NCBI GenBank assembly: GCA_947585795.1
Contig: CANPXG010000016.1
Coordinates: 1 to 43,269 of the forward strand
DNA length: 43,269 nucleotides
Source: an uncultured Clostridia bacterium
GTDB taxonomy: Bacteria; Bacillota; Clostridia; UBA1381
Direction of reading: 5' to 3'
The notes beneath the pieces were generated by a model. That model was given only the letters and a program-made list of their open reading frames with translations, was not told the origin of the DNA and ran no database searches. The position numbers and the translations under genes were made by a program. Below, piece after piece: positions 18,176 to 43,269 of the stretch. Within the stretch, counting starts at the first letter, position 1, and each line of letters starts with the position of its first letter.

Positions 18176-18332
18176 CACGCAAAATAAGGTAAAAAAGCGT
18201 GCAAAACTGCGTAAAAAAGGCGCAAAACAGTGGAAAAAAGCGTGCAAAGTAAGGGAAAAAACGTGCAAAGCAAGCGGAAAAAAGCGTGCAAAATGAGGAA
18301 AAAAACGTGCAAAACAGTGGAGGAAAACGATG
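18176..18332 (+). repeat. tandem ~22-bp repeats resembling RBS plus start codon
   Basis: Eight units occur in the leader. The GCAAA anchor starts at 18179, 18201, 18222, 18244, 18265, 18288 and 18309, and the ATG of the next gene occupies the same place in the eighth unit. Spacings are 21-23 bp. Each unit has a purine-rich core (AAGGG, GCGG, GTGG, GAGGA or GGAGG), an A-run of four to seven, then CGTGC. The units therefore look like diverged copies of the true start region GTGGAGGAAAACGATG. Several GTG codons open short frames: 18199-18252 (17 codons plus stop), and 18286-18333, whose TGA overlaps the ATG at 18330. A-runs phased at two helical turns should also bend the DNA. Confidence 0.85.
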
Positions 18333-19472
18333 AAAAAGATATATTTATTTTTACTTATAACGGTATTATTATGCGTTCTTGCGGGCTGTGAGGACGATAG
18401 CTCGCACACCGTAAAAATAGCCGTAATGGGCAACGAAGCCCAATTTTATCCCGGTTACAAGGAGGGCATCGAACGCGCCGAACGCGATTTAAACAGGGAA
18501 TACGCGGATTTGGGTTACAATGTCGAGTGCGAATTTTACGGCGACGACGGCAACTACGAGGAAGCCTCCGCGCGCATCGACACGATAGCCGCGGACGAGA
18601 GTTTGACTGCGGTTATAGGCTCGATGGACATGGACACGAGCAAGACCGCGGCGTATGTTTTCGACAGCACGGGGAAGCTTTTCGTCATGCCGTACTTCCT
18701 CTATGACGACGTGTACGAGGACAACAATTACAGTATGGTTTTCTCGCTGTGCGATTCGGCTGAAAACGTCGGAGAAACGTTAAGGCTCGCGGGCGAAAAA
18801 ACAACGGCGAAGCGCTGGGCGGTCTGCGCCTCCGACGCAAGCGAATTTGCACAGGCGGAAATGACGGGCTTTCTGCAATGCGAAACGGACAGTTCAATGA
18901 AGGTGGTCGACTGCGTCAACATGTCATCATTGGAAACGAATTTTGATGAGATCTACAAGCGCTGGGAAACTCTCGGAGTCGAAGGAGTGATAATGTTTCC
19001 CGAGGTGGGCAAAGGCTTTGACGTGTTAAAAAAGCTTAAACAAAGAAATCCGAACCTTATATGCGGAGGCGACACCGCCTTTGACAACAGCACGCTGCTT
19101 ATGAGCGATAAAGAGCTGCTGCGCGCGATGACGGGATTTATTATAGTTACCGAGGTAGTGATCGACGGCATAACGGAAGAAGAAGCTGACAGATTTAAGG
19201 ATATGAAAGACGAGTATATGAAGAATACGGGAAAAGAAATCGATCTATGGTATATTCAAGGATATAACGCCGTGAGGATCATCGCCGATACGGCGATCAA
19301 AAACGATACCGTAGACCCTGTGAAAATAGCGGAGATCTTACATAAGGACGGCTATGACGGCTTTGTGCGTGATTTCAGCTTTGACGAAAAAGGAGCCCAG
19401 AATAAGCAGGTCTATAAATACAACATATTTAACGCTGAAGGAATCGTAGAAGAATTTGAGATAAAGAAATAA
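18330..19472 (+). CDS. type-1 solute-binding lipoprotein (LivJ/Peripla_BP_6-like)
   Basis: A 380-residue lipoprotein. The signal MKKIYLFLLITVLLCVLAGC has lipobox LAGC, with C20 as the lipid anchor. The mature part has two lobes of the type-1 periplasmic-binding fold: the first strand KIAVMGNEAQFYPGYKEGIERA, then TAVIGSMDMDTSKTAAYVF, and a late WYIQGYNAVRIIADTAIK. In this family the protein binds amino acids or other small ligands for uptake or for sensing. No matching permease is nearby; it is instead first in an operon for peptide export. GGAGG precedes the ATG, which is the last unit of the repeat array. A role in sensing or holding a peptide or amino acid outside the cell is speculation. 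Confidence 0.85.
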   Translation: MKKIYLFLLITVLLCVLAGCEDDSSHTVKIAVMGNEAQFYPGYKEGIERAERDLNREYADLGYNVECEFYGDDGNYEEASARIDTIAADESLTAVIGSMDMDTSKTAAYVFDSTGKLFVMPYFLYDDVYEDNNYSMVFSLCDSAENVGETLRLAGEKTTAKRWAVCASDASEFAQAEMTGFLQCETDSSMKVVDCVNMSSLETNFDEIYKRWETLGVEGVIMFPEVGKGFDVLKKLKQRNPNLICGGDTAFDNSTLLMSDKELLRAMTGFIIVTEVVIDGITEEEADRFKDMKDEYMKNTGKEIDLWYIQGYNAVRIIADTAIKNDTVDPVKIAEILHKDGYDGFVRDFSFDEKGAQNKQVYKYNIFNAEGIVEEFEIKK

Positions 19473-19482
19473 GGAGGCGGAA

Positions 19483-20364
19483 ATGAAGAATTTATTCAGA
19501 GAAGAGGCGCTTAACAGCTTTTCTTCACATTCGGAAATGAACAAAGGAATACGCGCTATCAATATCCGCACGCTCATTTTTGCTATTTTTCTGTTCATAT
19601 GCGCGGCGATATTCGCGCTGTGGCTGTTCTTCGGAACGATCTATGAAACGGTCACGGTGGAGGGCATAATATGGCCCGCGCAGATGGGCGGGGAGGTTTA
19701 CGCCGACGCGGAGGGGTTCATATCCAAGACGACCGTGTCGGAAGGAAGCGCGGTCAACGCGGGCGACATATTGGCGGTCATCCCGCAGACGGACATCCTC
19801 GAGAAAATAGAATCGGGCAAGGCGGGCAATATCACGGACGAGCAGCTTAACAGCCTTTACAACGAGTACGACTTAAAATCTACGGTGCGCTCAAACATGG
19901 ACGGCTTCGTCACGTATATCGCGAACGAGAACTCCTACATCAGGGGAGGCGACAAAATAGCGACGATAGTTCCTTACGACCAAAGCGGCGACAACAAGAA
20001 GCTCACCGCGTTTATTCCCGCCGAGAACGGCGGACTTATCTCTCTCGGCACGGAGGCTCAGGTAATGCCCGACTTTGCGCCGCGCGAGCAGTACGGATAC
20101 ATAAAGGCTTACATATCCGATATTGCGTCTTATCCCGTCACGGGACAGAGCATAAAGGAAACAAACAGCGAGCTGTTTTTGCCGACGCTGAACGAAAGAG
20201 AAAGCTATTTGCGTATAGAGATAACGCTCATGCCTGATGCGCAGTCGCAAAGCCGCCTAAAATGGTCAAATCCGAGAAGCGGCAGCGTCGACGTCGCGAT
20301 GGGAACGCTGTGCGGCGCGGACATAGTAATCAAGGAATGCCATCCTTACGAGTGGTTGTTTTAG
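19483..20364 (+). CDS. HlyD-like adaptor of an NHLM-type peptide export system
   Basis: A 293-residue protein with a cytoplasmic N-terminus, one membrane helix (about 28-51) and an extracellular barrel-sandwich region. The N-terminal FREEALNSFSSHSEMNKGIRAINIR resembles the start of NHLM bacteriocin-system secretion proteins (TIGR03794-like). A lipoyl-like half is seen in VYADAEGFISKTTVSEGSAVNAGDIL and its partner in VRSNMDGFVTYIANENSYIRGGDKI. The long coiled-coil hairpin of Gram-negative HlyD is absent, as expected for a Gram-positive cell. AAGGAGG precedes the ATG, ten bases after the lipoprotein stop. Confidence 0.85.
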   Translation: MKNLFREEALNSFSSHSEMNKGIRAINIRTLIFAIFLFICAAIFALWLFFGTIYETVTVEGIIWPAQMGGEVYADAEGFISKTTVSEGSAVNAGDILAVIPQTDILEKIESGKAGNITDEQLNSLYNEYDLKSTVRSNMDGFVTYIANENSYIRGGDKIATIVPYDQSGDNKKLTAFIPAENGGLISLGTEAQVMPDFAPREQYGYIKAYISDIASYPVTGQSIKETNSELFLPTLNERESYLRIEITLMPDAQSQSRLKWSNPRSGSVDVAMGTLCGADIVIKECHPYEWLF

Positions 20365-20373
20365 GAGGGCATT

Positions 20374-22515
20374 ATGAAGAAGGTAAAGAAGATAACTCCG
20401 GTGCTTCAAATGGAAGTGACCGAATGCGGCGCGGCTTCGCTGGCAATGATTTTATCCTACTACGGTAAAACGGTAACGCTCGAGGAGCTGAGGCGCGAAT
20501 GCGGCGTTTCGCGTAACGGCGTGAACGCCAAAAATATCGTGCAGGCGGCGAAGTTCCACGATTTGACCCCGAGAGCCTTGCGCGTAAGCATCGAGGGCGC
20601 CCGCGAGGTGAAGCTGCCGGCTATTATACATTGGAACATGGACCATTTTCTCGTGCTTTGCGGATTTAACAAGAAGGGCGCGGTGCTCGCGGATCCCGCT
20701 TACGGCATAAGGACGGTGTCCGAGGAGGAGTTTTCAAAATCGTTTACGGGAATCGCGATCGAGTTTACGCCCGACGCGGATTTTAAAAAGGACAAGGGCG
20801 GAAAAACCGAAAATAATTATATAAGGTCATGCGTGATGGCGTTTTTGCCGAATACGCTGTATTTTGTGCTGCTTGAAATATGCGCGCTTATCGGCAGCGC
20901 GGCGGTACTGTTTTTAAATTCCGTGTTTATCGACAAAATTTTGATAAGCGGCAACACGAGTAATTTGAGGATAATATTGCAGGTTATCTTATGCGCGGGA
21001 CTTATAAGCGCGACGGCTGCCGCGTTTAACACGCATATAAGGTACCGCATAGGCAGGCAGATAAATATGCGCATAAACTCCGGCTTTATGATGCATTTAT
21101 TGCGCCTCCCCATAGAATTTTTTGCACAGCGAAGCGAGGGCGACCTTGCGAACCGCCAAAACACAAATATGGAAATGGGTGAGAACCTTGTGAGCATGCT
21201 CGCGCCTATCCCCGGATACGCGCTGCAAATACTCGTGTATTTTATACTTATACTCGCGTTTAACGTGCATATCGCGCTGGTGGGCGTATTCTGCGCCGCC
21301 GCGAATGTCTGCGCGATGCTTTTGAGCCAAAGGAAGTACGAGGATGAAATGCGCACGCACATCCGTGACCTCGGCGCGCTGCAAGGCGATATTTCAAGGG
21401 CTATCGACCTTGCGGAAACGATAAAATCCTGCGGGGCGGAGGACGCTATGTTTGTGCGTCTTACAGCCGCGGGAACGCGAGCCGTGAACACAAAAACGGG
21501 CATTGACAAAATCGGAGTGCACACGCGCGAGCTGTTTTGGTTTTTAAACGCGCTCGGTTCGGGCGCGGTGCTTATTACAGGAGTGTGGGAGATACTGTCC
21601 GGCAATCTGACTGCGGGTATCATAATAGCAATGCAGTCGCTTGTCGCCGCGATGCTCGAGCCTTTGGGCAATTTTGTAAACAACGGCATAGCGATGCAGA
21701 CGCTTAAAAGCGAAACGGCGCGTACGAACGACGTTATGCACTACGGAGAGGACGATAAATTTCTTGACGACTCCGAGGAGCATACGAAAAGCATCGACGG
21801 CGACATATCGCTTACCGATGTGACCTTCGGCTATAATCCGCTTGACGCTCCGCTTATAAAGGATTTCAATCTGACCGTCAAAAAGGGCGGGAGCGTCGCG
21901 ATCACGGGCGGAAGCGGAAGCGGCAAATCGACCGTGGCAAAAATCATAGCGGGACTTTACCGCGAGGACGGCGGACTTGTCCGCTTTGACGGCACGCCGA
22001 GAAACGAGATAAACCATTTCTATTTTTACTCAAAAACAGCCGTTGTGAGCCAAAATATCAGACTGTTCGAGGGTACCGTGCTCGACAATATAACGATGTG
22101 GGACGATACCATTCCGTATGACGAGGTCGTCGCGGCGGCAAAGGCGGCTTGTATTCACGAGGACATAATAAGCCGCAGGGACGGCTACCGCGAAAAAGTG
22201 TATGAGAACGGTAAAAACTTCTCCGGCGGGCAGCGGCAGCGCATAGAGATCGCCCGCGCGCTCGTCAAAAAACCGTCCGTGCTCATAATGGACGAGGCGA
22301 CAAGCGCGCTCGACACGGACACGGAGGAAAAGGTCATGAACAATATAAAAGCGCTCAAAATTACGAGAATAGTCGTCGCGCACAGGCTTTCGACCATCAT
22401 GGACAGCGACGAGATAATCGTTATGGACAACGGAGAAATTGCGGAGCGCGGAACGCACGACGAGCTTATGGCGAAAAACGGCATATACAGCTCGCTGGTA
22501 AGGAGCGTGAGTTAA
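20374..22515 (+). CDS. C39 peptidase-ABC exporter (PCAT, NHLM type)
   Basis: A 713-residue bifunctional exporter. Residues 1-140 are a C39 cysteine protease with catalytic C18 in TECGAASL, H91 in NMDHFLVL and D107 in LADPA. Six membrane helices follow (about 150-440), then an ABC ATPase with Walker A GGSGSGKST, signature FSGGQRQR and Walker B VLIMDEATSALD. Known members cut a leader after a double glycine and export the remaining peptide. The protease triad is intact, so a GG-leader substrate is expected; a candidate lies at 33217. AGGAGGG precedes the ATG, nine bases after the adaptor gene. Confidence 0.95.
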   Translation: MKKVKKITPVLQMEVTECGAASLAMILSYYGKTVTLEELRRECGVSRNGVNAKNIVQAAKFHDLTPRALRVSIEGAREVKLPAIIHWNMDHFLVLCGFNKKGAVLADPAYGIRTVSEEEFSKSFTGIAIEFTPDADFKKDKGGKTENNYIRSCVMAFLPNTLYFVLLEICALIGSAAVLFLNSVFIDKILISGNTSNLRIILQVILCAGLISATAAAFNTHIRYRIGRQINMRINSGFMMHLLRLPIEFFAQRSEGDLANRQNTNMEMGENLVSMLAPIPGYALQILVYFILILAFNVHIALVGVFCAAANVCAMLLSQRKYEDEMRTHIRDLGALQGDISRAIDLAETIKSCGAEDAMFVRLTAAGTRAVNTKTGIDKIGVHTRELFWFLNALGSGAVLITGVWEILSGNLTAGIIIAMQSLVAAMLEPLGNFVNNGIAMQTLKSETARTNDVMHYGEDDKFLDDSEEHTKSIDGDISLTDVTFGYNPLDAPLIKDFNLTVKKGGSVAITGGSGSGKSTVAKIIAGLYREDGGLVRFDGTPRNEINHFYFYSKTAVVSQNIRLFEGTVLDNITMWDDTIPYDEVVAAAKAACIHEDIISRRDGYREKVYENGKNFSGGQRQRIEIARALVKKPSVLIMDEATSALDTDTEEKVMNNIKALKITRIVVAHRLSTIMDSDEIIVMDNGEIAERGTHDELMAKNGIYSSLVRSVS

Positions 22516-24645
22516 ATGGCGGTAAACATAAAAGAAGAAAACGAGCGCATACAGAGCAAAAACCGTGAGGCTCGGCAAAAAATATACGAAAATATGGAGT
22601 CGGTCTTAAACGAAAAGACCGACTGTGACGGTATCAACGCCATACTCAAATTTTTGAACGAGAGAGAGCGCGTGGACACGGAGCTCCCTATGTCGGAACA
22701 GCTTCGCCACATCGAGGATAAGCTTTTTATAAAAATACGCTACGTGGAGCTTGACGAGGATTGGTACGCCGCGTCGGTAATTCCGATGCTCGTAAAAACC
22801 GTAAGCGGTCACTGGATCGCGGTAACGCCGAACGCCGACGGCAGCTGCGACTACATCGAGAACGGCAAAAAGAAGAGGATAACGCGCAAAAACGCGGATA
22901 TGTTCACAAATAACGCGATGTATTTTTATAAGGTGATGAAAAACGGTAAAATCACGATGCGCGACCTGCTCGTGTTTATGCTTAAGTGCAGCTCGAAGCG
23001 TGACAGAGTTACCGTGCTCATGACAGCGGCGCTCGCGACTGTCGCGGGAATGATGCTGCCGTGGGCAAACAGCTTTATATTTTCGGTGATAGTGCCGTCG
23101 GGTGAGCTTTCCGGCGCACCCGCAGCCGCCGCGCTCGTATTTTCGGCGGTGCTGCTTTCCGCGCTGCTCGGACTTTTACGCTCGCTGATTTTGACAAACA
23201 CGATGCTCCGCGCGACAACGTATGTGCAAAGCGCCGTATTTTCGCGTATGCTTTCGCTTAAGCCGGACTTTTTCAAAAACGTGAAGTCGGGTGAGTTGTC
23301 GCGAATGATAATGGAGTTTTCGGACGTGACACAGATAGTGTCGGTCGAGGGCATAAGCGCCTGCATAGGTATCGTGTTGTCGTTTGTGTACCTGATACAG
23401 ATATACATCTACGCGCCGTCGCTGTTCGCTCTTATCGTCATAGTCACTGTAATTCAGGACGCGATGATGATCGCGGAGGGTGTTTTAAATTCGAGGTGGA
23501 TGAAAAATTACTCCGCATCGTTGTCGGGCATGTCGGGTTTTTGCTACGAAATGTTTTCGGGTATCGAGCAGATAAAGCTCGGCGGCGCGGAAACACGTAT
23601 AATGCGTCGGTGGAGCGAGCGTTACGCGGACGCGTCGCAAAAGGAGATAAAGCCGTTTCTCGTTAAGTACGCCGACGTGATCTACAAGCTTATAAGGGTG
23701 CTGTCTACCGCCGCCGTGTTCTTGCTCGGCGCGTCGCTTCGTGCGCCCGACTATATCGCGTTTTCAGCCGCTTACGGTGCGTTTACCGCCGCGAGCGCGG
23801 GCGCGTCGGTCATTATACGTATGGTGGCGAGCTTCCGTTCGTCGTATCTTTTGATAAAGCCTATGCTCAGCGCGGAGTGCGAGGAGTACGGCGCGAGTAA
23901 AAAAAGACCTGATAAGCTGCGCGGTGATATTACGGTGACGGATGTGCATTTTCGCTACAGTGAGGAAACGCCGTATATTTTGAAGGGATTGTCCGTGCAG
24001 ATAAAGGCGGGTGAGAGCGTGGGTATTATCGGTGCGTCGGGGTGCGGTAAGTCGACGCTTATCAGGCTTCTACTCGGGTTTGAAACGCCGGATGAGGGCA
24101 GTATATATATAGACGGGTTCGATTTGCGTGAGCTCGATTTGAAGAGCTGCCGTAAAAAGATCGGTGTTGTGCTGCAAAATTCGGGGCTTATAGCGGGTGA
24201 TATTTATTCAAACGTTACGGTGACGAAGCCGAATGCGAGTATGGAGGAAGTGGAAAAGGCTGTGGAGATGGCGGGGCTTAAGGAGGATATAGAGGCGCTG
24301 CCGATGGGTCTGCATACGCCGATAAGTCAGGATAATTGTACGCTTTCGGGCGGTCAGAGGCAGCGGCTGCTTATTGCGCGTGCGATCATGAATAAGCCGT
24401 CGATACTTATTTTTGATGAGGCGACGAGTGCGCTCGATAATATTACGCAGAGTAAGGTGATAGAGGCGATAGAGGGGCTTGAGTGTACTAAAATTATAGT
24501 GGCGCACAGACTGTCGACGATCGAGAGCTGTGATAAAATTGTTGTGATGGAGGACGGTGTTGCCGCCGAGGTGGGCGCGTACAGTGAGCTTAAGGAGAGT
24601 GACGGCTTGCTTAAGAGGTTCGCAAAAAGACAGGTCGCGGGGTGA
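22516..24645 (+). CDS. second NHLM-type ABC exporter subunit without protease
   Basis: A 709-residue protein whose ATG directly follows the stop of the C39 exporter with no base between, implying coupled translation. An N-terminal cytoplasmic region of about 150 residues replaces the protease and has no catalytic Cys/His pair. Six membrane helices follow (about 155-440), then an ATPase with Walker A GASGCGKST, signature LSGGQRQR and Walker B ILIFDEATSALD. The layout matches the second ABC protein of NHLM systems (TIGR03797-like), which is thought to work together with the C39 exporter. Confidence 0.9.
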   Translation: MAVNIKEENERIQSKNREARQKIYENMESVLNEKTDCDGINAILKFLNERERVDTELPMSEQLRHIEDKLFIKIRYVELDEDWYAASVIPMLVKTVSGHWIAVTPNADGSCDYIENGKKKRITRKNADMFTNNAMYFYKVMKNGKITMRDLLVFMLKCSSKRDRVTVLMTAALATVAGMMLPWANSFIFSVIVPSGELSGAPAAAALVFSAVLLSALLGLLRSLILTNTMLRATTYVQSAVFSRMLSLKPDFFKNVKSGELSRMIMEFSDVTQIVSVEGISACIGIVLSFVYLIQIYIYAPSLFALIVIVTVIQDAMMIAEGVLNSRWMKNYSASLSGMSGFCYEMFSGIEQIKLGGAETRIMRRWSERYADASQKEIKPFLVKYADVIYKLIRVLSTAAVFLLGASLRAPDYIAFSAAYGAFTAASAGASVIIRMVASFRSSYLLIKPMLSAECEEYGASKKRPDKLRGDITVTDVHFRYSEETPYILKGLSVQIKAGESVGIIGASGCGKSTLIRLLLGFETPDEGSIYIDGFDLRELDLKSCRKKIGVVLQNSGLIAGDIYSNVTVTKPNASMEEVEKAVEMAGLKEDIEALPMGLHTPISQDNCTLSGGQRQRLLIARAIMNKPSILIFDEATSALDNITQSKVIEAIEGLECTKIIVAHRLSTIESCDKIVVMEDGVAAEVGAYSELKESDGLLKRFAKRQVAG

Positions 24646-24770: not shown

Positions 24771-24920
24771 GTTGGGGAAAGCGCGAAGGGGAGGGGGTGA
24801 GGGTTTTACGGCGTGGAGCGCGGGGTTTGGAGTGTATTTTTGGGGATAAGAGAGCGTGGAGGGGAGAGAGAGAGAGCCCTTGGTGCGGAGCGCGGCGGGG
24901 GCGTGAGAGGGGGGGAGCGT

Positions 24921-24944
24921 GAAAGTCAGTTTAGACGGCGTGAA
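24921..24944 (+). promoter_or_regulatory. copy 1 of a shared 24-bp box
   Basis: GAAAGTCA, five bases, then GACGGCGTGAA. It matches 21 of 24 positions with the box at 41132-41155 and has the same orientation toward its downstream promoter. It ends six bases before the -35 region of the SLH gene. It is a candidate operator for a common regulator. Confidence 0.6.
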
Positions 24945-24950
24945 ATGACA

Positions 24951-33360: not shown

Positions 33361-33788
33361 TTTGCCGTAAAGCGGGCAAATAAATCTTCACGTTGATGAT
33401 TTTCCCCCTTCTGATGTATAATACATCGGAAGGGGGAATTTTTATGTTTAGCCGCGCTTTCAGATAGAGAAAAAGGCCGGCTAAGCCGGTGGTTTTGATC
33501 TATGGAGAAATTTACTTTGGGTTTTATCATAAGGCGGCATTGTTTGTTCCGCGCTTACAGTGATTTGCGGTTGAGATCGGATAACAGGAGAGGGAGATTG
33601 GGGTCCAAATGGAGGGCTGTGACCTTAGAAGCGACAACAGAGAGTACATTTGTGTATAAGTTGCCTGAGTGTAAAATTGGATTTGGTTAGGTGGCTGTTG
33701 GGGAGATATGTCTGTTCAAAATCCCATAGAAACAGAGCTACAGACAATACGTGACGCAAATGGTTTGAATTGAAAAATAATTACCTCA
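33361..33788. other. non-coding gap with hairpin repeat
   Basis: This stretch of about 430 bases holds the terminator at 33404 and a hairpin CCGGC-TAA-GCCGG at about 33477-33489 followed by TGGTTTTGAT. The hairpin's tail CCGGTGGTTTTGAT equals that of the third hairpin at the left window edge, which suggests one dispersed repeat family. I see no credible gene; a 62-codon frame at 33502 has no ribosome-binding site and no recognisable product. Confidence 0.5.
33404..33444 (+). terminator. terminator of the SLH / GG-peptide unit
   Basis: CCCCCTTCTGATGTAT pairs with ATACATCGGAAGGGGG (one G-T pair) and is followed by AATTTTT. It lies 43 bases after the peptide stop codon. Confidence 0.9.
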
Positions 33789-33827: not shown

Positions 33828-33829
33828 CT

Positions 33830-36800
33830 TTACAGCATTTTACTTGCTGCCGTGATAGGCGACATATCGCTAAGTCCGTTCCATATCATTAATTTTATTG
33901 AGCCTACCGAAACGTTTTCCGGTATGGTTATCGTCTTTTGGAATATGAAGCTTGTGTCCGACAAGTCGGCTTCCATCATATTCATCGACGCAAGCGCGCC
34001 GTTTCTGTCATATACAGCGAGGATAATATTCGCTATCACCGGTGAATCCGCGCCTTCGACCTCGTCGATCGTCAAGCTCGCGTCAACCTCGCCACTCATA
34101 CTACTTGTATCGACCTCGTTTCCGTCCTCGTCGGAAAATACCGCGTCGGCGGATACCTTTATGTCGGGAGTCAGGAGAGTGATCGCGCCGTTTGATGTTT
34201 TAACATCGCAGTACGCGTCCTCGGTGATAACTACCGCGCCGCTTACCGCCAACTCGCACTCGCCGTCAGCCGCGCCGTCAAGCGCCTTGAAGGCGATTCG
34301 GCATACTTCTCCGCCTTTTACCGCGTCGCTGCCGTTATAAAGCACCGTAACGCTGTTTTCACCAAGGGAGGTGAATATATCTGTTGCCGCCGCGCCGTCG
34401 GGCGACGAGATCGACGCGCATGCGAGCTTTGTATTGTCAAACGTCAACGTGAAACGGTAATCGGTTATGCTGCTGTCCGCGCCTATGTACACGGGCACGT
34501 AAAGCGTGTCGCCCGCCTTGCCGCTTGCAGAGCCAATCGATATATCGGCGGTGCCCGCTGTGCGTGCTTTAACGGTGTAGCTTGCCTCGCGTACGTCGCT
34601 CCAAGCGTAACCTTCTTTTACAGCCGCCGCTTTTATCGTCATATCTTCCGTTACGACTATCGAGCCGTCACAGAGAGTGCCGTTTTCCGCTGTCGGATCG
34701 GTGCCGTCTGTCGTGTAGTAAATTTTCGCGCCGCTTGTATCGCTTTGGAGCGTTATAACCGTGCCTGCTTCAATTTCGCCGCTGTCGGCGCTAAGCGTCG
34801 GCGCTGCAGCCTTGGTCACCGATATTTTACCGCTTGCGGTGCGGCTTTGCTCCATGCCGTCCTTAACTGCTATCGCCTTGACGGTGGTCGTCGCCGTTAC
34901 CTTAAACGGCTCCGTGTACGGATTTGACGCCGCTGTCGGAACGGTACCGTCGGTGGTGTAGTAAATTTTCGCGTCCGCCGAGGCGCACGTGAGCGTCACC
35001 GTCTTACCGCCGTAATAGCCACTTGTTTCTATAACGGGCGTTTCGACCGTTCCGGTAGGCGCGGCTGTTTCCGTGACCGTTACCGTAAATTCAGCCGTGA
35101 AGCCGCCGTACGTGACGGTTACGGTCTGTGTGCCGACCGTCTGCGCCGAATAGCCTTGCGTGGTGTAGTCCGTTACCTGCGCTTCGGTGCCGTTATTGTA
35201 CGACGCGGTCACGAGCATGCCCGCCGTGTCAAGGCTGTCGCCCTTATTGTAAAGGCGTTTGTCGGGCTTTTTGGTGATCGTGATGCCGGTAAGCTCTTTT
35301 GCGATGACGGTTATGTTAAACGTTACCTTTTTGTCGCCGTATGTGACAGTTACGGTCTGTGTGCCGACTGTGGAGGTGCCATAGGTCAATTTGCAGTCGT
35401 GAGTAACGTTGGCGGTGGAGGTGTCAGAGTAGACAGCTTCGACTTCAAGTCCCGTTACGTCGAGCGTCATACCCTCCGTGACAGTTGTGACGGTCGGTTC
35501 GGAAATTATGCGCAAATCCGATACGATGAGCTTCGGGATGGTTTCGGTTACTGTGCCGTACTCCGATTTATACTCCTGTGAGCCGTCCTTGTCGGGTGTG
35601 GGCGGTACGTATTTGCCCTTTGTCCATACTGTATCATCCGACAATTCCGCGACCACCGCCGTGTCGGGGGAGGCATTGTCCTCACTTAGACAATTACGCT
35701 CCGCCGCGCCTTTTTCGGTTTGCGTCGGCTCGTCGGTAAGCGTCCACTCGTCCCAGTTATGCGTTATTTTAAAATCATCCGTTACCGTTACCGACTTATA
35801 ATTTCTCGTTTCCGCGAATACCGCCTTGACTGTGTACTCAGTACCCTCCGTCGGTTCGCCCGCCTTTGTCGGCTTTTCCTCGACGTACTCGTTCGCGTCC
35901 TTTACCGAATACGTGTACGTCACATCATTTATACCGTTCGTATCCGACTCGGGGAGGGGAGTTACGCTGTCGTCGCCGCACTTGTAATCATTCATTGTGA
36001 CGGTTGCGGTGCCGTTTGCCTGAGTTATGTTAACCGCTTCCGTGAGGGTGACGTTATCCTTACTGCTATCTACGCTGTAATAGTTTGCGTCCTCGCCGTC
36101 TACCTTGATTTCGGTAAGATTTACCGTTTGGTAGCTGTCAACATCCGCCGCCGCGACATTACCGACCGCCGTAAGCGTAACATTGTCCTCATCGTTGTTT
36201 GTCGGCGTGAGCGTCACATTTACCAGCGTTGTTTTGTTATACTCTCTGTCTGTTGCCGTTACATTATACGTAAGCGGCTTTTGATTCATCGTAACGGTGA
36301 TCGAGTTGTTTTCACTGCCGTTAAGATTGACGCTGCCGCCGTACTCCGCGCGGATTGTGTTCGCGCCGACCGCGAATTTCTTGTCAGCCGTAACTTCCGC
36401 CGTAGCCGTACCCGTATCGGAGAACGGACCCTCATATACGACGTTCGCCGACTTAATAAGCGTTTCGCCAAGATAGAAATCTACCGTATCAACCGCCGCG
36501 TTTATACTGAGCAGATTTGACGGCGATTTTGCGACTGTCGCGGTAAGCGTAAGCGTATCGCCGTAGGTTACCTCACCGCCGTCAACCGCAAGCGTGGAAT
36601 CTGCCTTATTGATTTTAACGTTATCCACCTTTTGAGGCGTGCTGTCCTCGTGGTTACCGTCGCCCTCGACCATGTACCAAACCTCGTACGCCTTCGCCTC
36701 GGTACCCGTCGGAACGGTTTCTTCGTAGTCGCCTTCCTGTTCCGTGGCATATTTAAGCGTGCCGTCATTTGTTGTGCCCGTCACAAGTTCTTGTGCCGTG

Positions 36801-39800
36801 CCGTTATACGTCAAAACATTTGCCTTTACCGTTGCGGTCGGCTCCGCCTTTGCGATGGTTATATTTGGAATTTCGACAGGCTCGGTGTCGTTATGGTTTT
36901 TGTCGCCCTTAACCTTGTACCAAACCGAATATGTGTCCGCGTCCGTTTCCGTGGGAATATCGGACGAATAGCTTTCATTGTCCGTGCTGTACTGTACCTC
37001 GCCGTCCTCTGTTTTACCCGCTGTGACAAGCGCCTGCGCCTCGCCGGTGTACGTCAAATCCGTATTTGCCGTCGGCGCCTCGGTGATTGCCGAATCCGCC
37101 TTTTCAATATTCACCGTGACATCGCCTGTCGGAGCGTCTGCCGCCTTATAATATTTTGCGTCGTCGCCTTCTACGGTAACGCCTGTCACCGTAACACTCT
37201 TGCCGTTACCCGCGTCCGCGTCGTCCATCGTTCCCGTTCCCGTTAATGTTACAGTGTCGCCATTGGCATTTGTCGGCGTAAGACTTACTTCAACGGTCGT
37301 GCCGCCGTCATATTTTCTGTTTGTCGCCTCAGCCGTGTACGTAAGCGTTTTTTGTTTCATCGTAACGGTGATCTCGTTGTTTTGACTGCCGTTAAGGTTT
37401 ACGCTTCCGCCGTACTCCGCGCGGATAGTGTTTTCGCCGATTTCAAAATCCTTGTTTGCGGTGATTTCAAGCGTCGCGGTGCCGATGCTTTTTAATTCCC
37501 CGTCTGTATATTCTACATTAGCCGTGCCGAGGGATTTTTCATTAATAAAGAACTCGACTTTATCTAAAGCTACCGCCGCTAAACGTATACCGTTCGCCGC
37601 GCTGCGCGTAACGTTGGCGGTGAGCGTAATCGTCGAGCCGTATGTTACCTCGCCGCCGTCAACCGCAAGCGTTGAATCTGCCTTATTGATTTTAACATTT
37701 TCCACCTTTTGCGGCGTGCTGTCCTCGTGGTTACTGTCACCCTTAACCTTGTACCAAACATCGTAGTCTTTCGCCTCAGTACCCGTCGGAATAACGTTTG
37801 TATAATTGCCCTCTTGCTGCGTAGCGTACTGCACCTCGCCGTCCTCTGTTTTACCCGCTGTGACAAGCTCCTGCGCCTCGCCCGTATACGTCAAATCCTT
37901 TGCCGTCGGAGCGCTCTCTACGCTTGACGCGGCTTTTTTGATTTTAACGTCTTCAACCTTTGTAGGATCTATATCTTTATGGTTACTGTCGCCCTCGACC
38001 TTGTACCAAACCTCGTAGTCCTGAGCGTCTGTGCCTTTCGGAACAGTTTCGCTGTACACGCCGTCCTGCGATGTGGCATATTTAAGCGTACCGTCCTCTG
38101 TTTCACCCGTTACAAGCTCATGCTCATTGCCGTCATAAGTTAAATCCGCCGCTTTCACCGTCACGCTCGGCTCGGCTTTCGCTATGCTCACCTTAACCGT
38201 GAGCGTCACATCGTCCGTGCCGTAGCTGTCAAAGCTCATAAGCGAATACTGCGGCGTTTTTTCATGTGCCGTAATCGTAATCGTATGTTCGCCCGCATTA
38301 AGCCCTGGTTGTACTGTCAGCGTATTCTCGTTTATACTTGCATCTGTGTCACCTTGGTCGCTTATTTCGTATGTAAACTTGCCCTCAGCCTCAACACTTT
38401 TGTTCGCGTACGCCATATATTCGTTCAAATCCGCCGTGATCGGCTCTTTGTAGCCGTAAGTATCATTCAGCGTGATGTTACTGTCGCCGCCGAAATGGTC
38501 GCGTCCGACGGCGTACACGGTCATATCCTCCGTAACGCTCGTATTCTCGTCAAACTTTTCGCCGTCGCCCTGTGTCTTTGACCAATTCTTAAACGTATAA
38601 TTATTCCTTTTAGGCTCACTCGGCAGCGCTACCTTTCCGTTCGGATTTGTATACTTCGCGTCGTACTCCGTTTCATTTTGAATGAACGCTACTTTCAGTA
38701 CCTTAGCTCCCGCAGCACTCGTCAGCACGGGGTAATCGTCAGCACCGTCGCCGAGCTTTTGTCCCCATACCTGTGTATCGGGCGAAGTCTGACCTTTCTG
38801 CAAAAGCCATGTTACCGCACCGGAATTAAATTCGTCCTCTGTTTTTGACTCTGTTTTTTCCACCGTGTTAGTACCTGATGTTGACGTAAATCCAACGCCT
38901 TTTAAGCCATCTGTTCCAAGATAATAGCAATTTTTTACCGTGCTGTTGTTTTGAAGTTGCCCCGTAATGGCGCCGAAGTAGCTAACCGACGCTGTTGCAG
39001 TAATGTTTCCGTTTGTATTATAGCAGTTTTCTATTGTGCCTCCGTCACAATATCCAGCGATACCGCCTACGAAGTTTCCTCCCGAAATACTGCCCGTATT
39101 ATAACAGTTCTCTATTTTACCTTTGTTTTGTCCGGCAACGCCTCCATAACCGACGTTACCTTTACCCACTAAATTTACACCGCTATAACAATATGTTATG
39201 GTTCCTTCGTTTTTTCCCGCTATGCCGCCGCTGTAGTTATATGCGGTAACGGAGCCTTCAACGCCGAGATTTTTAACTGTTCCCGTCGTGCCTATATATC
39301 CGAACAAACCTTTAGACTCGTTTGAGGTCTTTATATAAAGTCCGCTTATTTTATGCCCGTCACCGTCGAATGTGCCTTGAAAAGGCTTCTCCGTGGAAAC
39401 AAGCTCAGGGAAAGTTGCTGGCTCGTATATTCCAATCGGCGTCCATTGTTCTCCATCGCTGCCGTCAAGATTTATATCTGCCGTCAGCTTAAAATGTTCG
39501 CCGCTGCCGCCGTCATCATCATCGTTAATATAATTGCGTATCTTTTCAAGCGTCGGCTTGTCGGGAATCGTGTACGGTGTAGCCTCCTTACCGTTGCCGC
39601 CCTCAGGCGCAGCGGTGAGTATAGGTCTTTTGAGGAAAGAGGAATCCTCCCATGCACTGCCCGAGTCGCCGTTAAGTGACGATGCAAGCTTTTTAAAATC
39701 ATCGGCATTCTTTACATCGACCGTACCCGGAGTGTCTTTATCTGTGCCGCCGATACCTTTCTGCGCCATATCCTTAAGATAATAGCAGTTCGCTATTGTA

Positions 39801-40999
39801 CCGTTGCTGTTTGTTCCCGCAATGCCGCCGGCATTGGTACTGCCGCTTATCTCGCCCGTATTATAGCAGTTTTGTATCTTATCGCTGTTTGTACCGGCGA
39901 TACCGCCCGTGGCTGTAGTGCCGCTGATTTTCGCCGTATTATATGAATTTTCTATTGCGACGGTGTTTTTGCCCGCAATGCCGCCGGCAGCATCGCTCGT
40001 AGACGTGATATTGCCTAAGTTATATGAATTTTTTATGCTGCCGGTGTCTGCGGAGTTTTGGTCGTTACTGCCCGCGATACCGCCCGTGGCTTTATATCCG
40101 CTGATGGTTGCCGTATTATATGAATTTTCTATTGCGGCGGTGTTTTTGCCCGCAATGCCGCCGGTGAAAGACTCTGTACCGCTGCTCGTTATGATTTCGC
40201 CCGTATTATAGCAGTTTTCTATCTTTCCTTGGCTGTTATTGCCCGCAATGCCGCCGGTGGGGGAGTCGCCATCGGCTGTAAGAGTCACGCTGCCCGCGTT
40301 ATGGCAGTTTTGTATCGTTCCGCCGCCGCCTTCGCCGTTGTTATCGCCCGCGATACCGCCCGTTCCTGAGAATCCATCCGAGGTGCTGCTTGTAATATTG
40401 CCTGTATTATAGCAGCCCTTTATCGTTCCTTTGTCATTCAGTCCCGCGATACCGCCGATTGAACAGCTTCCGTTAATATCTACGTCGCTGTAACAATTTT
40501 CTATCGTACCGCTGTTCAGTCCCGCGATACCGCCTATATCGACTGTACCACCGTCTATTGAACCCGATACGCTGAGATTTTTTACAGTACCGCCTTCACC
40601 GATGCCCTCAAATAAGCCCCCATAAAGGGAATCGCCTATATACAGTCCTTTTATCGTATGACCTTTTCCGTCAAACGTGCCTTTAAACGGCTTTGATGAA
40701 AACACATCGCCTATCGGAGTCCATGATTTGCCGCCTTCGTCGCCTTTATCCGCGCCGTATGTGTCGGACATATCGATATCCGCCGTAAGCTCAAAGTACT
40801 TGCCGGTTGTGTCGTTTGTGGCAGCATAAGTGCTAAGCTCTTCAAGGTCTTTTAGGTTTGCGATTATGTAAGGACTGCTCACTTCGCCCGTTCCGCCCGA
40901 GCCTTCAAAACCCTCCGCGCGCGCGCTCAAAGAAAACGCGCCCGTCATGGAAAACACCATCGCAAGCGCTACTGTTAAACTCACAATTCTTCTTTTCAT
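33830..40999 (-). CDS. giant secreted GLUG / Ig-like / cohesin-like repeat protein
   Basis: A 2389-residue secreted protein. The signal peptide covers 1-28 (cut after ARA). Two blocks of GLUG-type repeats follow (about 34-434 and 467-707) with GGIAG and NCYNTG signatures. An InlB-type B-repeat lies at 767-830. Tandem MBG/YDG-like modules run from about 850 to 1750, then two Big_3-like Ig domains (1827-1977), two chitobiase C-terminal-like domains with YYTTDGT (1990-2147), a cohesin-like domain (about 2147-2277) and a final beta domain. There is no LPXTG, SLH or membrane anchor at the C-terminus. GGAGGAATG precedes the ATG at 40999; the frame upstream to 41140 spans the promoter. Confidence 0.9.
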   Translation of the reverse strand: MKRRIVSLTVALAMVFSMTGAFSLSARAEGFEGSGGTGEVSSPYIIANLKDLEELSTYAATNDTTGKYFELTADIDMSDTYGADKGDEGGKSWTPIGDVFSSKPFKGTFDGKGHTIKGLYIGDSLYGGLFEGIGEGGTVKNLSVSGSIDGGTVDIGGIAGLNSGTIENCYSDVDINGSCSIGGIAGLNDKGTIKGCYNTGNITSSTSDGFSGTGGIAGDNNGEGGGGTIQNCHNAGSVTLTADGDSPTGGIAGNNSQGKIENCYNTGEIITSSGTESFTGGIAGKNTAAIENSYNTATISGYKATGGIAGSNDQNSADTGSIKNSYNLGNITSTSDAAGGIAGKNTVAIENSYNTAKISGTTATGGIAGTNSDKIQNCYNTGEISGSTNAGGIAGTNSNGTIANCYYLKDMAQKGIGGTDKDTPGTVDVKNADDFKKLASSLNGDSGSAWEDSSFLKRPILTAAPEGGNGKEATPYTIPDKPTLEKIRNYINDDDDGGSGEHFKLTADINLDGSDGEQWTPIGIYEPATFPELVSTEKPFQGTFDGDGHKISGLYIKTSNESKGLFGYIGTTGTVKNLGVEGSVTAYNYSGGIAGKNEGTITYCYSGVNLVGKGNVGYGGVAGQNKGKIENCYNTGSISGGNFVGGIAGYCDGGTIENCYNTNGNITATASVSYFGAITGQLQNNSTVKNCYYLGTDGLKGVGFTSTSGTNTVEKTESKTEDEFNSGAVTWLLQKGQTSPDTQVWGQKLGDGADDYPVLTSAAGAKVLKVAFIQNETEYDAKYTNPNGKVALPSEPKRNNYTFKNWSKTQGDGEKFDENTSVTEDMTVYAVGRDHFGGDSNITLNDTYGYKEPITADLNEYMAYANKSVEAEGKFTYEISDQGDTDASINENTLTVQPGLNAGEHTITITAHEKTPQYSLMSFDSYGTDDVTLTVKVSIAKAEPSVTVKAADLTYDGNEHELVTGETEDGTLKYATSQDGVYSETVPKGTDAQDYEVWYKVEGDSNHKDIDPTKVEDVKIKKAASSVESAPTAKDLTYTGEAQELVTAGKTEDGEVQYATQQEGNYTNVIPTGTEAKDYDVWYKVKGDSNHEDSTPQKVENVKINKADSTLAVDGGEVTYGSTITLTANVTRSAANGIRLAAVALDKVEFFINEKSLGTANVEYTDGELKSIGTATLEITANKDFEIGENTIRAEYGGSVNLNGSQNNEITVTMKQKTLTYTAEATNRKYDGGTTVEVSLTPTNANGDTVTLTGTGTMDDADAGNGKSVTVTGVTVEGDDAKYYKAADAPTGDVTVNIEKADSAITEAPTANTDLTYTGEAQALVTAGKTEDGEVQYSTDNESYSSDIPTETDADTYSVWYKVKGDKNHNDTEPVEIPNITIAKAEPTATVKANVLTYNGTAQELVTGTTNDGTLKYATEQEGDYEETVPTGTEAKAYEVWYMVEGDGNHEDSTPQKVDNVKINKADSTLAVDGGEVTYGDTLTLTATVAKSPSNLLSINAAVDTVDFYLGETLIKSANVVYEGPFSDTGTATAEVTADKKFAVGANTIRAEYGGSVNLNGSENNSITVTMNQKPLTYNVTATDREYNKTTLVNVTLTPTNNDEDNVTLTAVGNVAAADVDSYQTVNLTEIKVDGEDANYYSVDSSKDNVTLTEAVNITQANGTATVTMNDYKCGDDSVTPLPESDTNGINDVTYTYSVKDANEYVEEKPTKAGEPTEGTEYTVKAVFAETRNYKSVTVTDDFKITHNWDEWTLTDEPTQTEKGAAERNCLSEDNASPDTAVVAELSDDTVWTKGKYVPPTPDKDGSQEYKSEYGTVTETIPKLIVSDLRIISEPTVTTVTEGMTLDVTGLEVEAVYSDTSTANVTHDCKLTYGTSTVGTQTVTVTYGDKKVTFNITVIAKELTGITITKKPDKRLYNKGDSLDTAGMLVTASYNNGTEAQVTDYTTQGYSAQTVGTQTVTVTYGGFTAEFTVTVTETAAPTGTVETPVIETSGYYGGKTVTLTCASADAKIYYTTDGTVPTAASNPYTEPFKVTATTTVKAIAVKDGMEQSRTASGKISVTKAAAPTLSADSGEIEAGTVITLQSDTSGAKIYYTTDGTDPTAENGTLCDGSIVVTEDMTIKAAAVKEGYAWSDVREASYTVKARTAGTADISIGSASGKAGDTLYVPVYIGADSSITDYRFTLTFDNTKLACASISSPDGAAATDIFTSLGENSVTVLYNGSDAVKGGEVCRIAFKALDGAADGECELAVSGAVVITEDAYCDVKTSNGAITLLTPDIKVSADAVFSDEDGNEVDTSSMSGEVDASLTIDEVEGADSPVIANIILAVYDRNGALASMNMMEADLSDTSFIFQKTITIPENVSVGSIKLMIWNGLSDMSPITAASKML
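34170..34560 (-). other. cohesin-like domain within the giant protein
   Basis: The encoded segment begins ADISIGSASGKAGDTLYVPV and contains YRFTLTFDNTKLACASI, VTVLYNGSDAVKGGEVCRIAFKA-type and SGAVVITEDAY-type strands in the cohesin order. In the known family cohesins bind dockerin domains to assemble multi-protein complexes. No dockerin is encoded in this window. Confidence 0.65.
36300..37720 (-). repeat. internal duplication of ~1.07 kb in the giant gene
   Basis: The segment around 36340-36680 reappears around 37390-37760. Both encode STPQKV-(D/E)-NVKINKADSTL followed by EVTYG and an IRAEYGGSVNLNG stretch. DNA identity is about 90% over the best 100 bases. It indicates a fairly recent duplication of a block of Ig-like modules, with slower drift elsewhere in the copies. 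Confidence 0.7.
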
Positions 41000-41039
41000 C
41001 AGACATTCCTCCGTAAAGTCACAAAATATTCCTACCGTA

Positions 41040-41068
41040 ATTGTACCACAAACAGCGTAGATCCTCAA
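41040..41068 (-). promoter_or_regulatory. promoter of the second giant surface protein
   Basis: On the minus strand TTGAGG (41068-41063) is followed after 17 bp by TACAAT (41045-41040), preceded by TGTGG. It lies about 40 bases upstream of the ATG. A phased direct repeat sits 12 bp upstream of the -35 box. Confidence 0.7.
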
Positions 41069-41080
41069 CACGCTTACCCT

Positions 41081-41115
41081 GATTTTCACGAAGTGAAACT
41101 TGATTTTTACGACTT
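41081..41115 (-). promoter_or_regulatory. candidate LytTR operator (21-bp-phased direct repeat)
   Basis: GATTTTCACGAAGT (41081-41094) and GATTTTTACGACTT (41102-41115) match at 11 of 14 positions and start exactly 21 bp apart. Pairs of direct repeats two helical turns apart, just upstream of a -35 box, are the known layout of LytTR-regulator sites. A palindrome TTTCAC-GAA-GTGAAA (41084-41098) overlaps the first copy. The LytTR regulator gene at 41243 is divergent from this promoter. Confidence 0.5.
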
Positions 41116-41131
41116 CATAGGGCATGCTTGC

Positions 41132-41155
41132 GAAAGTCATTTCTGACGGCGTGAA
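41132..41155 (+). promoter_or_regulatory. copy 2 of the shared 24-bp box
   Basis: GAAAGTCA, five bases, then GACGGCGTGAA, 21 of 24 positions equal to 24921-24944. It lies 16 bp upstream of the -35 box of the regulator gene, 11 bp farther than copy 1 lies from its -35 region. Confidence 0.6.
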
Positions 41156-41171
41156 CGACGCGCGCTGTCTA

Positions 41172-41200: not shown

Positions 41201-41242
41201 TAGTGTGTATAGTGGAATAATTGCGAAAATGGGGTGAAGTTA

Positions 41243-41959
41243 ATGCGGATCGCGGTTTTGGATGATGACTTGAGGGAGAGGGAGCAGTTTGAAGAAGCCC
41301 TGCACGGCTGGGATCCGACGCGGAGTGCGGAAGGGTTTGAAAACGGCTCCGCTTTGCTCGACGCCGCGCGTTCGTCGCCGCCTTTTGATATAGCGTTTTT
41401 GGATATTTATCTGCCGCGGGAGGACGGTATGAATATAGCGAAGAGCCTGCGGGAGGCTTCGCCCGAAACGGAGATAGTGTTCGTCACGACGAGCACGGAG
41501 CACGCCGTTGACGCGTTCTCCGTCCGTGCGCTGCACTATATTGTAAAGCCGGTGACGACCGAAGACATAGTCGAGTGCTTTCACCGTCTTGCGAAGCGGC
41601 GCCGCGATAGGCGTGGGCGCGTGACGCTCGCGGTGGGTTCGGAGAGGTATACGGTGTTTTTGGATCAAATTTGTCTTATTGAAAGTGATAATCACACGGT
41701 CAATGTGTCGCTCGCCGACGGGCGGAGCTTGAAGGTGCGTATGTCCTTTAAAGAGGTCGAGGCGAAGCTGAACGAGAATTTTTTGAGGATAAATCGAGGT
41801 ATAGTGGTGAATATGGATTATATCGCGCAAATGCGGGCTGACGCGTGTATTTTGCAAAACGGTGTGCAGCTGCCGATAGCGATACGACGCAGTACGGCGA
41901 TACGCGCCGCGTATGACGATTATGTGTTTGACAGGCTTTCGGAGCGTAAGGAATTTTAA
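41243..41959 (+). CDS. LytTR-family response regulator (AgrA/ComE-like)
   Basis: A 238-residue regulator. The receiver domain (1-115) has the acidic cluster DDD (7-9), phospho-acceptor D54 in AFLDIY and K102 in IVKPV. The LytTR DNA-binding domain (about 130-232) has FLRINRGIVVNMDYI. The ATG at 41243 has GGGGTGA seven bases upstream; a GTG at 41234 overlaps that site. The kinase gene follows in the same operon. The gene is divergent from the giant secreted protein and shares its intergenic region, which makes that protein a likely target. Confidence 0.93.
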   Translation: MRIAVLDDDLREREQFEEALHGWDPTRSAEGFENGSALLDAARSSPPFDIAFLDIYLPREDGMNIAKSLREASPETEIVFVTTSTEHAVDAFSVRALHYIVKPVTTEDIVECFHRLAKRRRDRRGRVTLAVGSERYTVFLDQICLIESDNHTVNVSLADGRSLKVRMSFKEVEAKLNENFLRINRGIVVNMDYIAQMRADACILQNGVQLPIAIRRSTAIRAAYDDYVFDRLSERKEF

Positions 41960-41971
41960 GGAGGGTGGGCG

Positions 41972-43269
41972 ATGAACGCTTTTGTGAGAAACGCGCTTGG
42001 CTTCTTTGTGCAGTTTTTTCCGTGCGCGGTCATGCTTTTTTTCTCTTTCCCCGAGGAGGATTATCGGTTTCGGCGTAAATGGGTTTTTGTCGGAATGACG
42101 ACAGCCGCGGTGGCTTTGGCGGCGCTGTTTCCCGCTGTGATACGTATTGAGGTGGGCGGGAATGTGGCGTTTGGCGCGAATGTGTTTATGTTTTCCGCGA
42201 TATTTCTTGCGCTTTTGTCCTACATTTTTTTGGTACGTGAAATATTGATAAAAAAGCTTTTGGTTTTCTTTGTGGTACTGTTTTACGGAACGATGCAGTA
42301 TTGTTTGGTGAACGCGTTAAACGGATTTTTTACGGGATTTTTGAATATTACCCAAACGTATGAGGAATGGTCCGTGTACACGCCGCACGGGTTGGCGCTG
42401 TACATAATAACGACTGTTTTGCTGCTGCCGCTGATGCTGACGTTTGTGTCGCGCACCTTGCGCGAGTATATCGTGGAGGTGGAAACGAGCGACATGCGGC
42501 GTGAGTTTTTTGTGCTTATCATATCGACGGCGGCGCTCGTTGTAATGATGATTTGTGTTGATGTTACGTATTATTATTTGGAGTATAAGGTGTATTTGCT
42601 TATTTTAGCGTTGCTTTTTGTGCTGTTACTCTATCAAATGATAATATGCTGGCTTATTTTCAGGGAGTCGGTGCGCCGTAAGCGTGACAATGAGCAGCGG
42701 CGTACGCTTGAAATTCAGCGGTTCCAGTACGAGAAAATCGCGGGTGATATGGAGAATACGCGGCGTATGCGTCACGATATGCACCACCATTACAACGTCA
42801 TGAGCGATATGCTCGGCAGGGGTGAGGTGGAGGAAACGCGGGAGTATATTTCCGGTATGATCGGGGCGACGGTGAAGCGGGAGAGTGAGGTATACTGTAA
42901 AAATATGACGTTAAACGCGCTCCTTCAGTATTATGTGGGGCTTGCGCGTGACGAGGGGATAACGTGCCGCGTGCAGGCAGAGTGTGAGGAGCTTACGATC
43001 GAGCCCGCCGACCTTACGATACTGTTCGGTAACGTCATGGAGAACGCAATAAAGTCTTGTAAAAAATGTGCGGACGATCCGCGTATAACGATACGCGTCG
43101 GTACGGTGCACAGTTCGCTCGCGATCGAGATAACAAATTCCTGTGCGGGTGTGCGCCTTAACAGACGCTTCCAATCCGACGACGGATTTTCACCCGCCGA
43201 AGCGTTTATAAGCGACCGTCCCGTCGGCGGTCACGGTCTGCGCAGTATAGCGCATACAGTGCAAAAATA
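41972..43269 (+). CDS. AgrC/ComD-like sensor histidine kinase (cut by window end)
   Basis: The frame is open from 41972 to the last base, 432 codons, so the C-terminus is missing. About seven membrane helices fill the first 230 residues with no large extracellular domain, typical of peptide-pheromone receptors. The GHKL kinase part has H-box RMRHDMHHHYNVM (H268), N-box LFGNVMENAIKSC (N358) and glycine box GGHGLRSI near 418, all intact. AAGGAGGGTG precedes the ATG, 12 bases after the regulator stop. Family members of this shape sense secreted peptides and phosphorylate a LytTR regulator; the ligand here is unknown. Confidence 0.92.
   Translation, partial: MNAFVRNALGFFVQFFPCAVMLFFSFPEEDYRFRRKWVFVGMTTAAVALAALFPAVIRIEVGGNVAFGANVFMFSAIFLALLSYIFLVREILIKKLLVFFVVLFYGTMQYCLVNALNGFFTGFLNITQTYEEWSVYTPHGLALYIITTVLLLPLMLTFVSRTLREYIVEVETSDMRREFFVLIISTAALVVMMICVDVTYYYLEYKVYLLILALLFVLLLYQMIICWLIFRESVRRKRDNEQRRTLEIQRFQYEKIAGDMENTRRMRHDMHHHYNVMSDMLGRGEVEETREYISGMIGATVKRESEVYCKNMTLNALLQYYVGLARDEGITCRVQAECEELTIEPADLTILFGNVMENAIKSCKKCADDPRITIRVGTVHSSLAIEITNSCAGVRLNRRFQSDDGFSPAEAFISDRPVGGHGLRSIAHTVQK

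Follow-up and report, generated by a model that had tools for sequence, protein, structure and literature searches.

A double-glycine peptide gene accompanies genes for giant surface proteins in uncultured Clostridia and may encode their extracellular partner

In uncultured Clostridia, a gene for a small double-glycine (GG) peptide stands steadily beside a gene for a giant surface protein. The pair was studied in a stretch of 43,269 nucleotides (the window), which is contig C16 (CANPXG010000016.1) of a draft genome called G000 here (GenBank assembly GCA_947585795.1; 2.54 Mb, 130 contigs, 86.5% complete). The peptide gene lies 20 bp 3′ of the gene for giant 1, and both share the window with an export operon, a second giant and a LytTR two-component system consisting of the response regulator RRb and the sensor kinase HKb (Table 1). 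A giant of this superfamily is the immediate upstream gene in 27 of the 29 peptide copies, which come from six families, with a gap of −1 to 100 bp; some of these giants are truncated by contig ends. The reading favoured here, tentatively, is that the exported peptide works with its giant, and a pheromone function is a close rival; the remaining probability goes to other roles.

The two exceptions to the adjacency are G034, where an open reading frame (ORF) of 960 residues lies between the two genes, and contig C27 of G023, where a remnant lacking a start codon has no giant. The pairing holds where the exporter sits elsewhere in the genome (G023, G008, G265, G113) and also in genomes without HKb. 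The giant of G446 has a C-terminal hydrophobic stretch and a charged tail as anchor, and in the giant of G102 the similarity to giant 1 ends ahead of the S-layer homology (SLH) part. Because these two giants differ in their anchor, the peptide seems independent of SLH. The earlier note on this DNA, made from its letters, had counted two surface proteins of over 2300 residues. Their sizes are borne out, at 2719 residues for giant 1 and about 2389 for giant 2, whose ORF (33830–41140) has 2436 residues and is shortened by a start at 40999 preceded by a ribosome-binding site (RBS). SLH matches are confined to giant 1; giant 2 gave no Pfam match to SLH. Among sequences of the PDB, giant 1 matched the S-layer protein Sap, in the SLH part, and a Na/Ca exchanger Calx-beta, and otherwise gave one row at chance level. 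Residues of about 1380–1570 of giant 1 form a conserved, Gly-rich, hydrophobic stretch that looks by eye like beta strands and is followed by a propeller-looking region; the stretch has no PDB sequence match.

The GG-leader peptide gene that had been noticed at 33217 is confirmed as a 47-residue ORF with the RBS AAGGAGG and glycines at positions 24–25. The precursor consists of the leader MAENEKEKKNTQEVDLEDLEQVTGG and a predicted linear core of 22 residues, GAFDNVPRVPEHKVDDSLRGKI. Assuming a cut at G25, the leader fits the consensus quoted in the available part of PMC12184118 (I/L/V at −12, E at −8, L at −7, V at −4, then GG), with D at −8. By this consensus the cut is predicted after G25 and not after G26, a placement that is our own. 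No NCBIfam or Pfam family matched the peptide at E values up to 0.01, and it is neither nitrile-hydratase-like nor Nif11-like. A cyclic peptide of the agr kind was considered and rejected, as the window peptide has no Cys. A profile of the peptide matched 17 of 70 genomes of the family and was accepted in nine of 391 genomes of the class (E 4e-4 or better), which argues that the gene is not a chance ORF. Excluded from these counts were matches in G149, G291, G411 and G434 (E 0.0047 or weaker, in ORFs of 147–387 residues), a third, leader-only match in G265 (E 8.5e-4) with no giant adjoining in locus L192, and weak early matches in ORFs of about 350 residues, which the profile search replaced. 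None of 600 pattern matches in the viral_contigs collection was confirmed as this peptide, so no phage carriage is indicated there.

The earlier note had made its proposal depend on the peptide being conserved beside such exporters in related genomes. The peptide is kept in that company: the exporter (E up to 1e-120) was found in 22 family genomes, among them all 17 with the peptide, and at the same threshold in eight of the nine peptide genomes of the class. The ninth, G204, has exporter pieces at a contig end, running into a giant. Exporters without a detected peptide occur in five family genomes, namely G003, G005, G017 and G067, whose exporters are at most 41% identical, and G007, where the exporter lies on a 7-kb contig. 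The association is strong in the family (Fisher p 3e-12) and in the class (3e-10), both values being uncorrected for kinship. Since G113, G446 and G265 carry a divergent kind of exporter (39–44% identity), the peptide is associated with more than a single branch of exporters.

Three core types were distinguished among 28 copies, by eye: type A with P[RH]VP (16 copies), type B with a C-terminal [ILV]SxxT (8) and type C with LPPTVPEN (3); G034 is untyped and the G023 remnant was left out. When type A is compared with type B, mean identity is 0.63 over the final 12 residues of the leader and 0.20 over the cores. The giant tree comprises 27 rows, 26 of them typed, and omits the fragments G021c and G050; on it, core type needs two changes, which is the minimum, and none of 200 shuffles came as low. 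The exporter tree (31 rows, 20 typed) needs six changes, a value matched by 21 of 200 shuffles, and its well-supported branches force at least three changes for type A. On the tree of the substrate-binding-protein-like lipoprotein (SBP) that opens the export operon (18 rows, 16 typed), five changes are needed, as low as in 40 of 200 shuffles; a role of the SBP as a type-discriminating receptor is not supported by this tree. The core types, as assigned from sequence, follow the giant and not the exporter, and from this it appears that giant and peptide travel jointly past a shared exporter.

The predicted exporter is a two-ABC set of the NHLM kind with a HlyD-type adaptor and a Peripla_BP_6 lipoprotein. 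Its adaptor, C39-ABC protein and second ABC half (ABC2) each have their best match in the NHLM/NHLP set, all below the curated NCBIfam cut-offs. The gene order of these three is kept in relatives, where the SBP likewise comes first. The C39 protease had been called intact, and so it appears from a PF03412 match (2.2e-35) and from residues Q12, C18, H91 and D107, placed by motif against the PCAT residues named in the available part of PMC12184118. In a search of the draft genome, this protein was the only one of 28 matches that spanned the C39 part. The 47-residue precursor is very probably exported by this set and trimmed after G25. The peptide could instead serve the exporter or the SBP itself, in maturation, gating or retrieval, its tie to the giant then reflecting a shared need for secretion. 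This is improbable: exporter matches occur in 15 of the 382 class genomes without an accepted peptide, and core type tracks neither the exporter nor the SBP tree, which outweighs the SBP-like lipoproteins that accompany several NHLM exporters and the C-terminal end of the core, alike in most copies except that of G265a.

Several further observations concern this exporter group. The SBP-like lipoproteins just mentioned (22–28% identity) adjoin NHLM exporters at loci L087, L209, L210, L221 and L222, including one of Clostridium homopropionicum; the available part of PMC2887384 does not mention an SBP as an accessory of the export set. In the window, a tandem array of about seven copies of a 21-bp unit, rich in CGTGCAAAA, occupies positions 18168–18316, between a promoter-like sequence recognised by eye and the SBP start. 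It is absent from the 204 bp upstream of the SBP gene of G027, and its period is that of the LytTR repeats, which may be a coincidence. A pattern scan found no LytTR-like site ahead of the export operon. At window positions 1289–6343 there are STAS-kinase and SpoIIE-like genes, whose relatives in other genomes adjoin divergent NHLM exporters (L074, L085, L188, L191, L220), which suggests a separate, phosphatase-linked export system. Near such divergent exporters other GG-leader ORFs occur (L225, 5804–6034; L220, 15440–15703; L090, 6434–6688); they differ from the window peptide, and one of them has several Cys. A scan of the genome_contigs collection with Walker-type patterns gave, among the matches listed, many unrelated ABC transporters; 10 of 80 loci were annotated, and among these ten there were divergent NHLM exporters and no giant–peptide pair.

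Upstream regions compared by eye contain a pair of direct repeats with a 21-bp period, and the site pattern CGTRAAADTCRNTTTNNNCNKCGTGAA was drawn from G000, G023, G024, G025 and G027. The available part of PMC6193735 describes LytTR sites as a pair of 9-bp repeats that are separated by 12 bp and lie shortly upstream of a promoter. The putative sites in the window fit this layout, and their repeat letters differ from the list given there. In the whole G000 draft the pattern has four matches at up to three mismatches, of which three belong to this locus and precede giant 1, giant 2 and RRb; shuffled windows average 0.02 matches, and the reversed pattern has none in G000. Across 16 genomes there are 18 matches with 0–2 mismatches, present in all 10 genomes with HKb and in none of the six without it (reversed pattern, one match in total). 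When the five source genomes of the pattern are set aside, nine matches remain, in five of five genomes with HKb and none of the six without. At three mismatches the six HKb-less genomes give nine matches, so this level includes chance. Ten of the 18 matches precede giant 1 or giant 2 (G000, G008, G023, G024, G025, G027), one precedes RRb (G022) and seven lie elsewhere.

Spacing supports the pattern further. In 12 promoters the distance from it to the −10 box is exactly 28 bp or 39 bp. The shorter spacing belongs to giant 1 in five genomes, the longer one to giant 2 in four genomes, to RRb in G000 and G022, and to giant 1 in G008; the difference of 11 bp is about one helical turn. Sites with four mismatches, which the scan printed only when the spacing matched, have the 39-bp spacing in G027 and G024, where they precede RRb, and in G008, where one lies upstream of HKb; G008 also has a three-mismatch site with 28-bp spacing ahead of another SLH protein. 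Because a terminator-like hairpin stands behind the peptide gene, the peptide is taken as being under the same control as giant 1. The LytTR system thus probably controls the giant–peptide operon and itself. More fully, a direct-repeat site common to all would, with high probability, let RRb and HKb switch on three targets: the giant 1–peptide operon, giant 2 and the operon of RRb and HKb themselves. This agrees with the earlier expectation that the output would be surface architecture, since a LytTR-type site precedes both giants, and the site before the regulator gene adds autoregulation. Some results count against such control: the non-cassette sites of G007 and G026 lack the promoter spacing; no site was found at the second giants of G025 (C2) and G022 (C16); and none was found in the loci of G032, G062, G031, G040, G048, G021, G282, G102 and G265, in a scan of relatives that covered the upstream ends in part. 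Predicted control through the site is a feature of the HKb-bearing lineage, on one giant copy per genome, and not of the cassette as a whole.

With such a site at both the peptide and the kinase operon, a pheromone loop as in ComCDE/Blp has to be weighed. HKb would sense the trimmed peptide and RRb would activate giant 1 with the peptide, giant 2 and RRb–HKb, giving a surface remodelling that is autoinduced by the population; with the peptide as ligand, the common site would make this a closed loop of positive feedback. The kinase had been described as AgrC/ComD-shaped and next to a LytTR regulator, and the polytopic HKb fragment (about seven hydrophobic segments, an RHD box and a GHKL domain) beside the receiver–LytTR protein RRb agrees with that description. 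HKb (E up to 1e-40) occurs in 10 of the 70 family genomes, and peptide and HKb co-occur in seven (Fisher p 0.001, kinship uncorrected). The sensor half of HKb (residues 1–225) is most diverged where the peptide type has changed: it is 37–42% identical in the nine pairs that include G008, which alone among the kinase genomes has a type B peptide, and at least 45% identical in the other 36 pairs, while the kinase half in the G008 pairs is an ordinary 65–73%. This divergence is a single switch, seen in pairs that are not independent, and is accordingly also counted against the loop. Other GHKL or LytTR genes adjoin the module: GHKL kinases lie beside the SBP gene of G040 and directly behind the peptide gene of G048, a LytTR protein lies beside the SBP gene of G037, and G021 has a different type of two-component pair. 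This neighbour scan covered 10 proteins, four of which were not such genes or, at G021:C206, were a receiver-only protein behind the peptide.

The pheromone loop nevertheless loses ground on the distribution of its parts. HKb is absent from 10 of the 17 peptide genomes, and the peptide was undetected in three of the 10 kinase genomes: G004 and G026 (drafts 84% and 90% complete) have HKb with neither exporter nor peptide, and G007 has HKb and the exporter. A narrow regular-expression scan found no small GG ORFs near HKb or the sites in these three. The peptide gene is linked to the giant and not to the kinase, from which it is 8.6 kb away in the window; the second giant–peptide copies of G025 and G022 have no site; and pherotypes change fast, whereas this core stays similar from family to family. 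The pheromone loop is consequently judged possible and somewhat doubtful. Of the peptide-signalling system proposed in the earlier note, the predicted LytTR control of the giants and the exporter-linked peptide stand, whereas the steady genomic neighbour of the peptide turns out to be the giant instead of the kinase.

A GG leader and a C39 exporter with profile matches of the NHLM type would also suit a bacteriocin or another released effector, for which sharing an operon with the giant would be incidental. A family scan of 10 window proteins turned up no recognisable gene for immunity or modification. The window core lacks Cys, the cores of 28 copies carry charges ranging from −5 to +3, and both the conservation of the core across families and the steady linkage to the giant speak for something else; a bacteriocin is an unlikely explanation.

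In the favoured reading, the freed 22-residue linear peptide might act outside the cell with the giant encoded on the same mRNA; it could, for instance, bind the giant and assist its folding, assembly or engagement with the envelope. HKb would then sense something else, or would sense the peptide only in some lineages. A number of points weigh against this reading. Linear peptides of about 22 residues have the size of pheromones, and we know of no structural partner so small. No binding site for the peptide was found on the giant. The more distant giants G017:C12, G017:C527, G034:C97, G049:C79, G014:C7, G000:C26 and G025:C12 lack an RBS-preceded GG-type ORF in the 500 bp that follow them (three further ones run off their contigs). 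The giant tree carries long-branch warnings for G113, G446 and the G265 pair, and the agreement of core type with the giant may be mere linkage of neighbouring genes. In G000 another giant, on contig C61, is followed by a second peptide copy with 93% identity over 46 residues; the two giants are 32% identical over their best stretch, yet have the same last 30 residues. In G027 the SLH ends of the giants are 97% identical over 239 residues. These copy pairs indicate that the peptide is not finely tuned to the whole giant. Between G000:C61 and C16, and between G027:C54 and C21, the giant bodies have diverged and the SLH ends and peptides are near-identical, as if the 3′ end of the giant copies had been homogenised by recombination.

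Several described systems resemble parts of this one; the comparisons draw on those parts of the cited papers that were available. ComCDE/Blp (PMC7595303) shares the GG leader, the C39 exporter, a polytopic GHKL kinase, a LytTR regulator and direct repeats at the peptide and kinase operons; here, by contrast, the peptide gene appears tied to a giant and apart from the kinase, which is not co-inherited. The NHLM/NHLP triad (PMC2887384) has the same HlyD-like, C39-ABC and second ABC proteins, whereas in the window the scores stay under the curated cut-offs, the precursor falls outside the NCBIfam families and an SBP lipoprotein is added. The profiling table of PMC2887384 has, in one organism, an S-layer-homology protein among the co-occurring matches of the export set, a faint echo of the present association. 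MAM of Faecalibacterium duncaniae (PMC12184118) is a GG-leader product that is presumably processed and secreted through a C39 exporter and located in the envelope; with it, an envelope protein with a leader for a C39 exporter has a precedent. MAM has 135 residues and itself forms the lattice. The 47-residue window precursor has neither the MMMPAN motif of the MAM leader nor a helical cargo of about 113 residues, and no giant partner is described in the part of that paper available. The EbfG proteins of Synechococcus elongatus (PMC4997328) are likewise small, secreted, GG-leader proteins, required for biofilm and linked to a cysteine-peptidase transporter, and the available part of that source ties no giant protein to them. 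The earlier note knew of no described system with this gene set, and a literature search, in which subscription coverage was mostly lacking, agrees in having returned no giant–peptide cassette.

The remaining features of the window touch the cassette less directly. A second pair, of a membrane kinase-like ORF and a LytTR regulator, lies at 6868–9381 and adjoins a V-type ATPase operon (9405–17588, named by eye). Rfam and tRNA scans of the window gave no matches.

Table 1. Positions and supporting matches of the features discussed, in window coordinates.
Feature	Position	Strand	Evidence
SBP: Peripla_BP_6 lipoprotein, opens export operon	18330..19472	+	Pfam PF13458 2.7e-17; lipobox by eye
HlyD-type adaptor	19483..20364	+	TIGR03794 121.9 bits (cut-off 156.2, not reached)
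C39 peptidase-ABC exporter	20374..22515	+	TIGR03796 752.5 bits (cut-off 853.3, not reached); PF03412
Second ABC half (ABC2), no C39 domain recognised	22516..24645	+	TIGR03797 584.6 bits (cut-off 709.4, not reached); Pfam
LytTR-like direct-repeat site, giant 1 promoter	24918..24944	+	0 mismatches; 28 bp from TATAAT
Giant 1, 2719 residues: signal-peptide-like start, Calx-beta, CARDB, three C-terminal SLH	25037..33196	+	
Double-glycine peptide, 47 residues: leader to G25, predicted core GAFDNVPRVPEHKVDDSLRGKI	33217..33360	+	
Intrinsic-terminator-like hairpin, end of giant 1–peptide operon	33402..33438	+	17-pair stem, then T run
Giant 2, about 2389 residues: GLUG, Big_3, YDG, chitobiase C-terminal-type domains	33830..40999	-	Pfam; RBS-based start
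LytTR-like site, giant 2 promoter	41085..41111	-	1 mismatch; 39 bp from TACAAT
LytTR-like site, regulator gene promoter	41129..41155	+	3 mismatches; 39 bp from TATAAT
LytTR response regulator RRb (receiver + LytTR)	41234..41959	+	PF00072, PF04397
Polytopic GHKL sensor kinase HKb, truncated by contig end	41972..43269	+	PF14501; hydrophobic segments; RHD box

According to the available part of PMC7595303, no receptor has been identified in pneumococcus for those double-glycine peptides that lack a two-component neighbour. Here, one peptide family has a steady giant surface-protein neighbour in several genome families, together with a readable control site. It is conceivable, though still speculative, that double-glycine micro-peptides are dedicated extracellular partners of giants, made from the same mRNA, exported by separate routes (C39-ABC for the peptide and Sec for the giant) and reunited outside the cell, in this lineage under an autoregulated LytTR switch. 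Both the favoured reading and the pheromone loop agree with surface architecture as the output. Whether the kinase or the giant is the target of the peptide, either answer would tell how one group of uncultured bacteria builds or times its surface layer.

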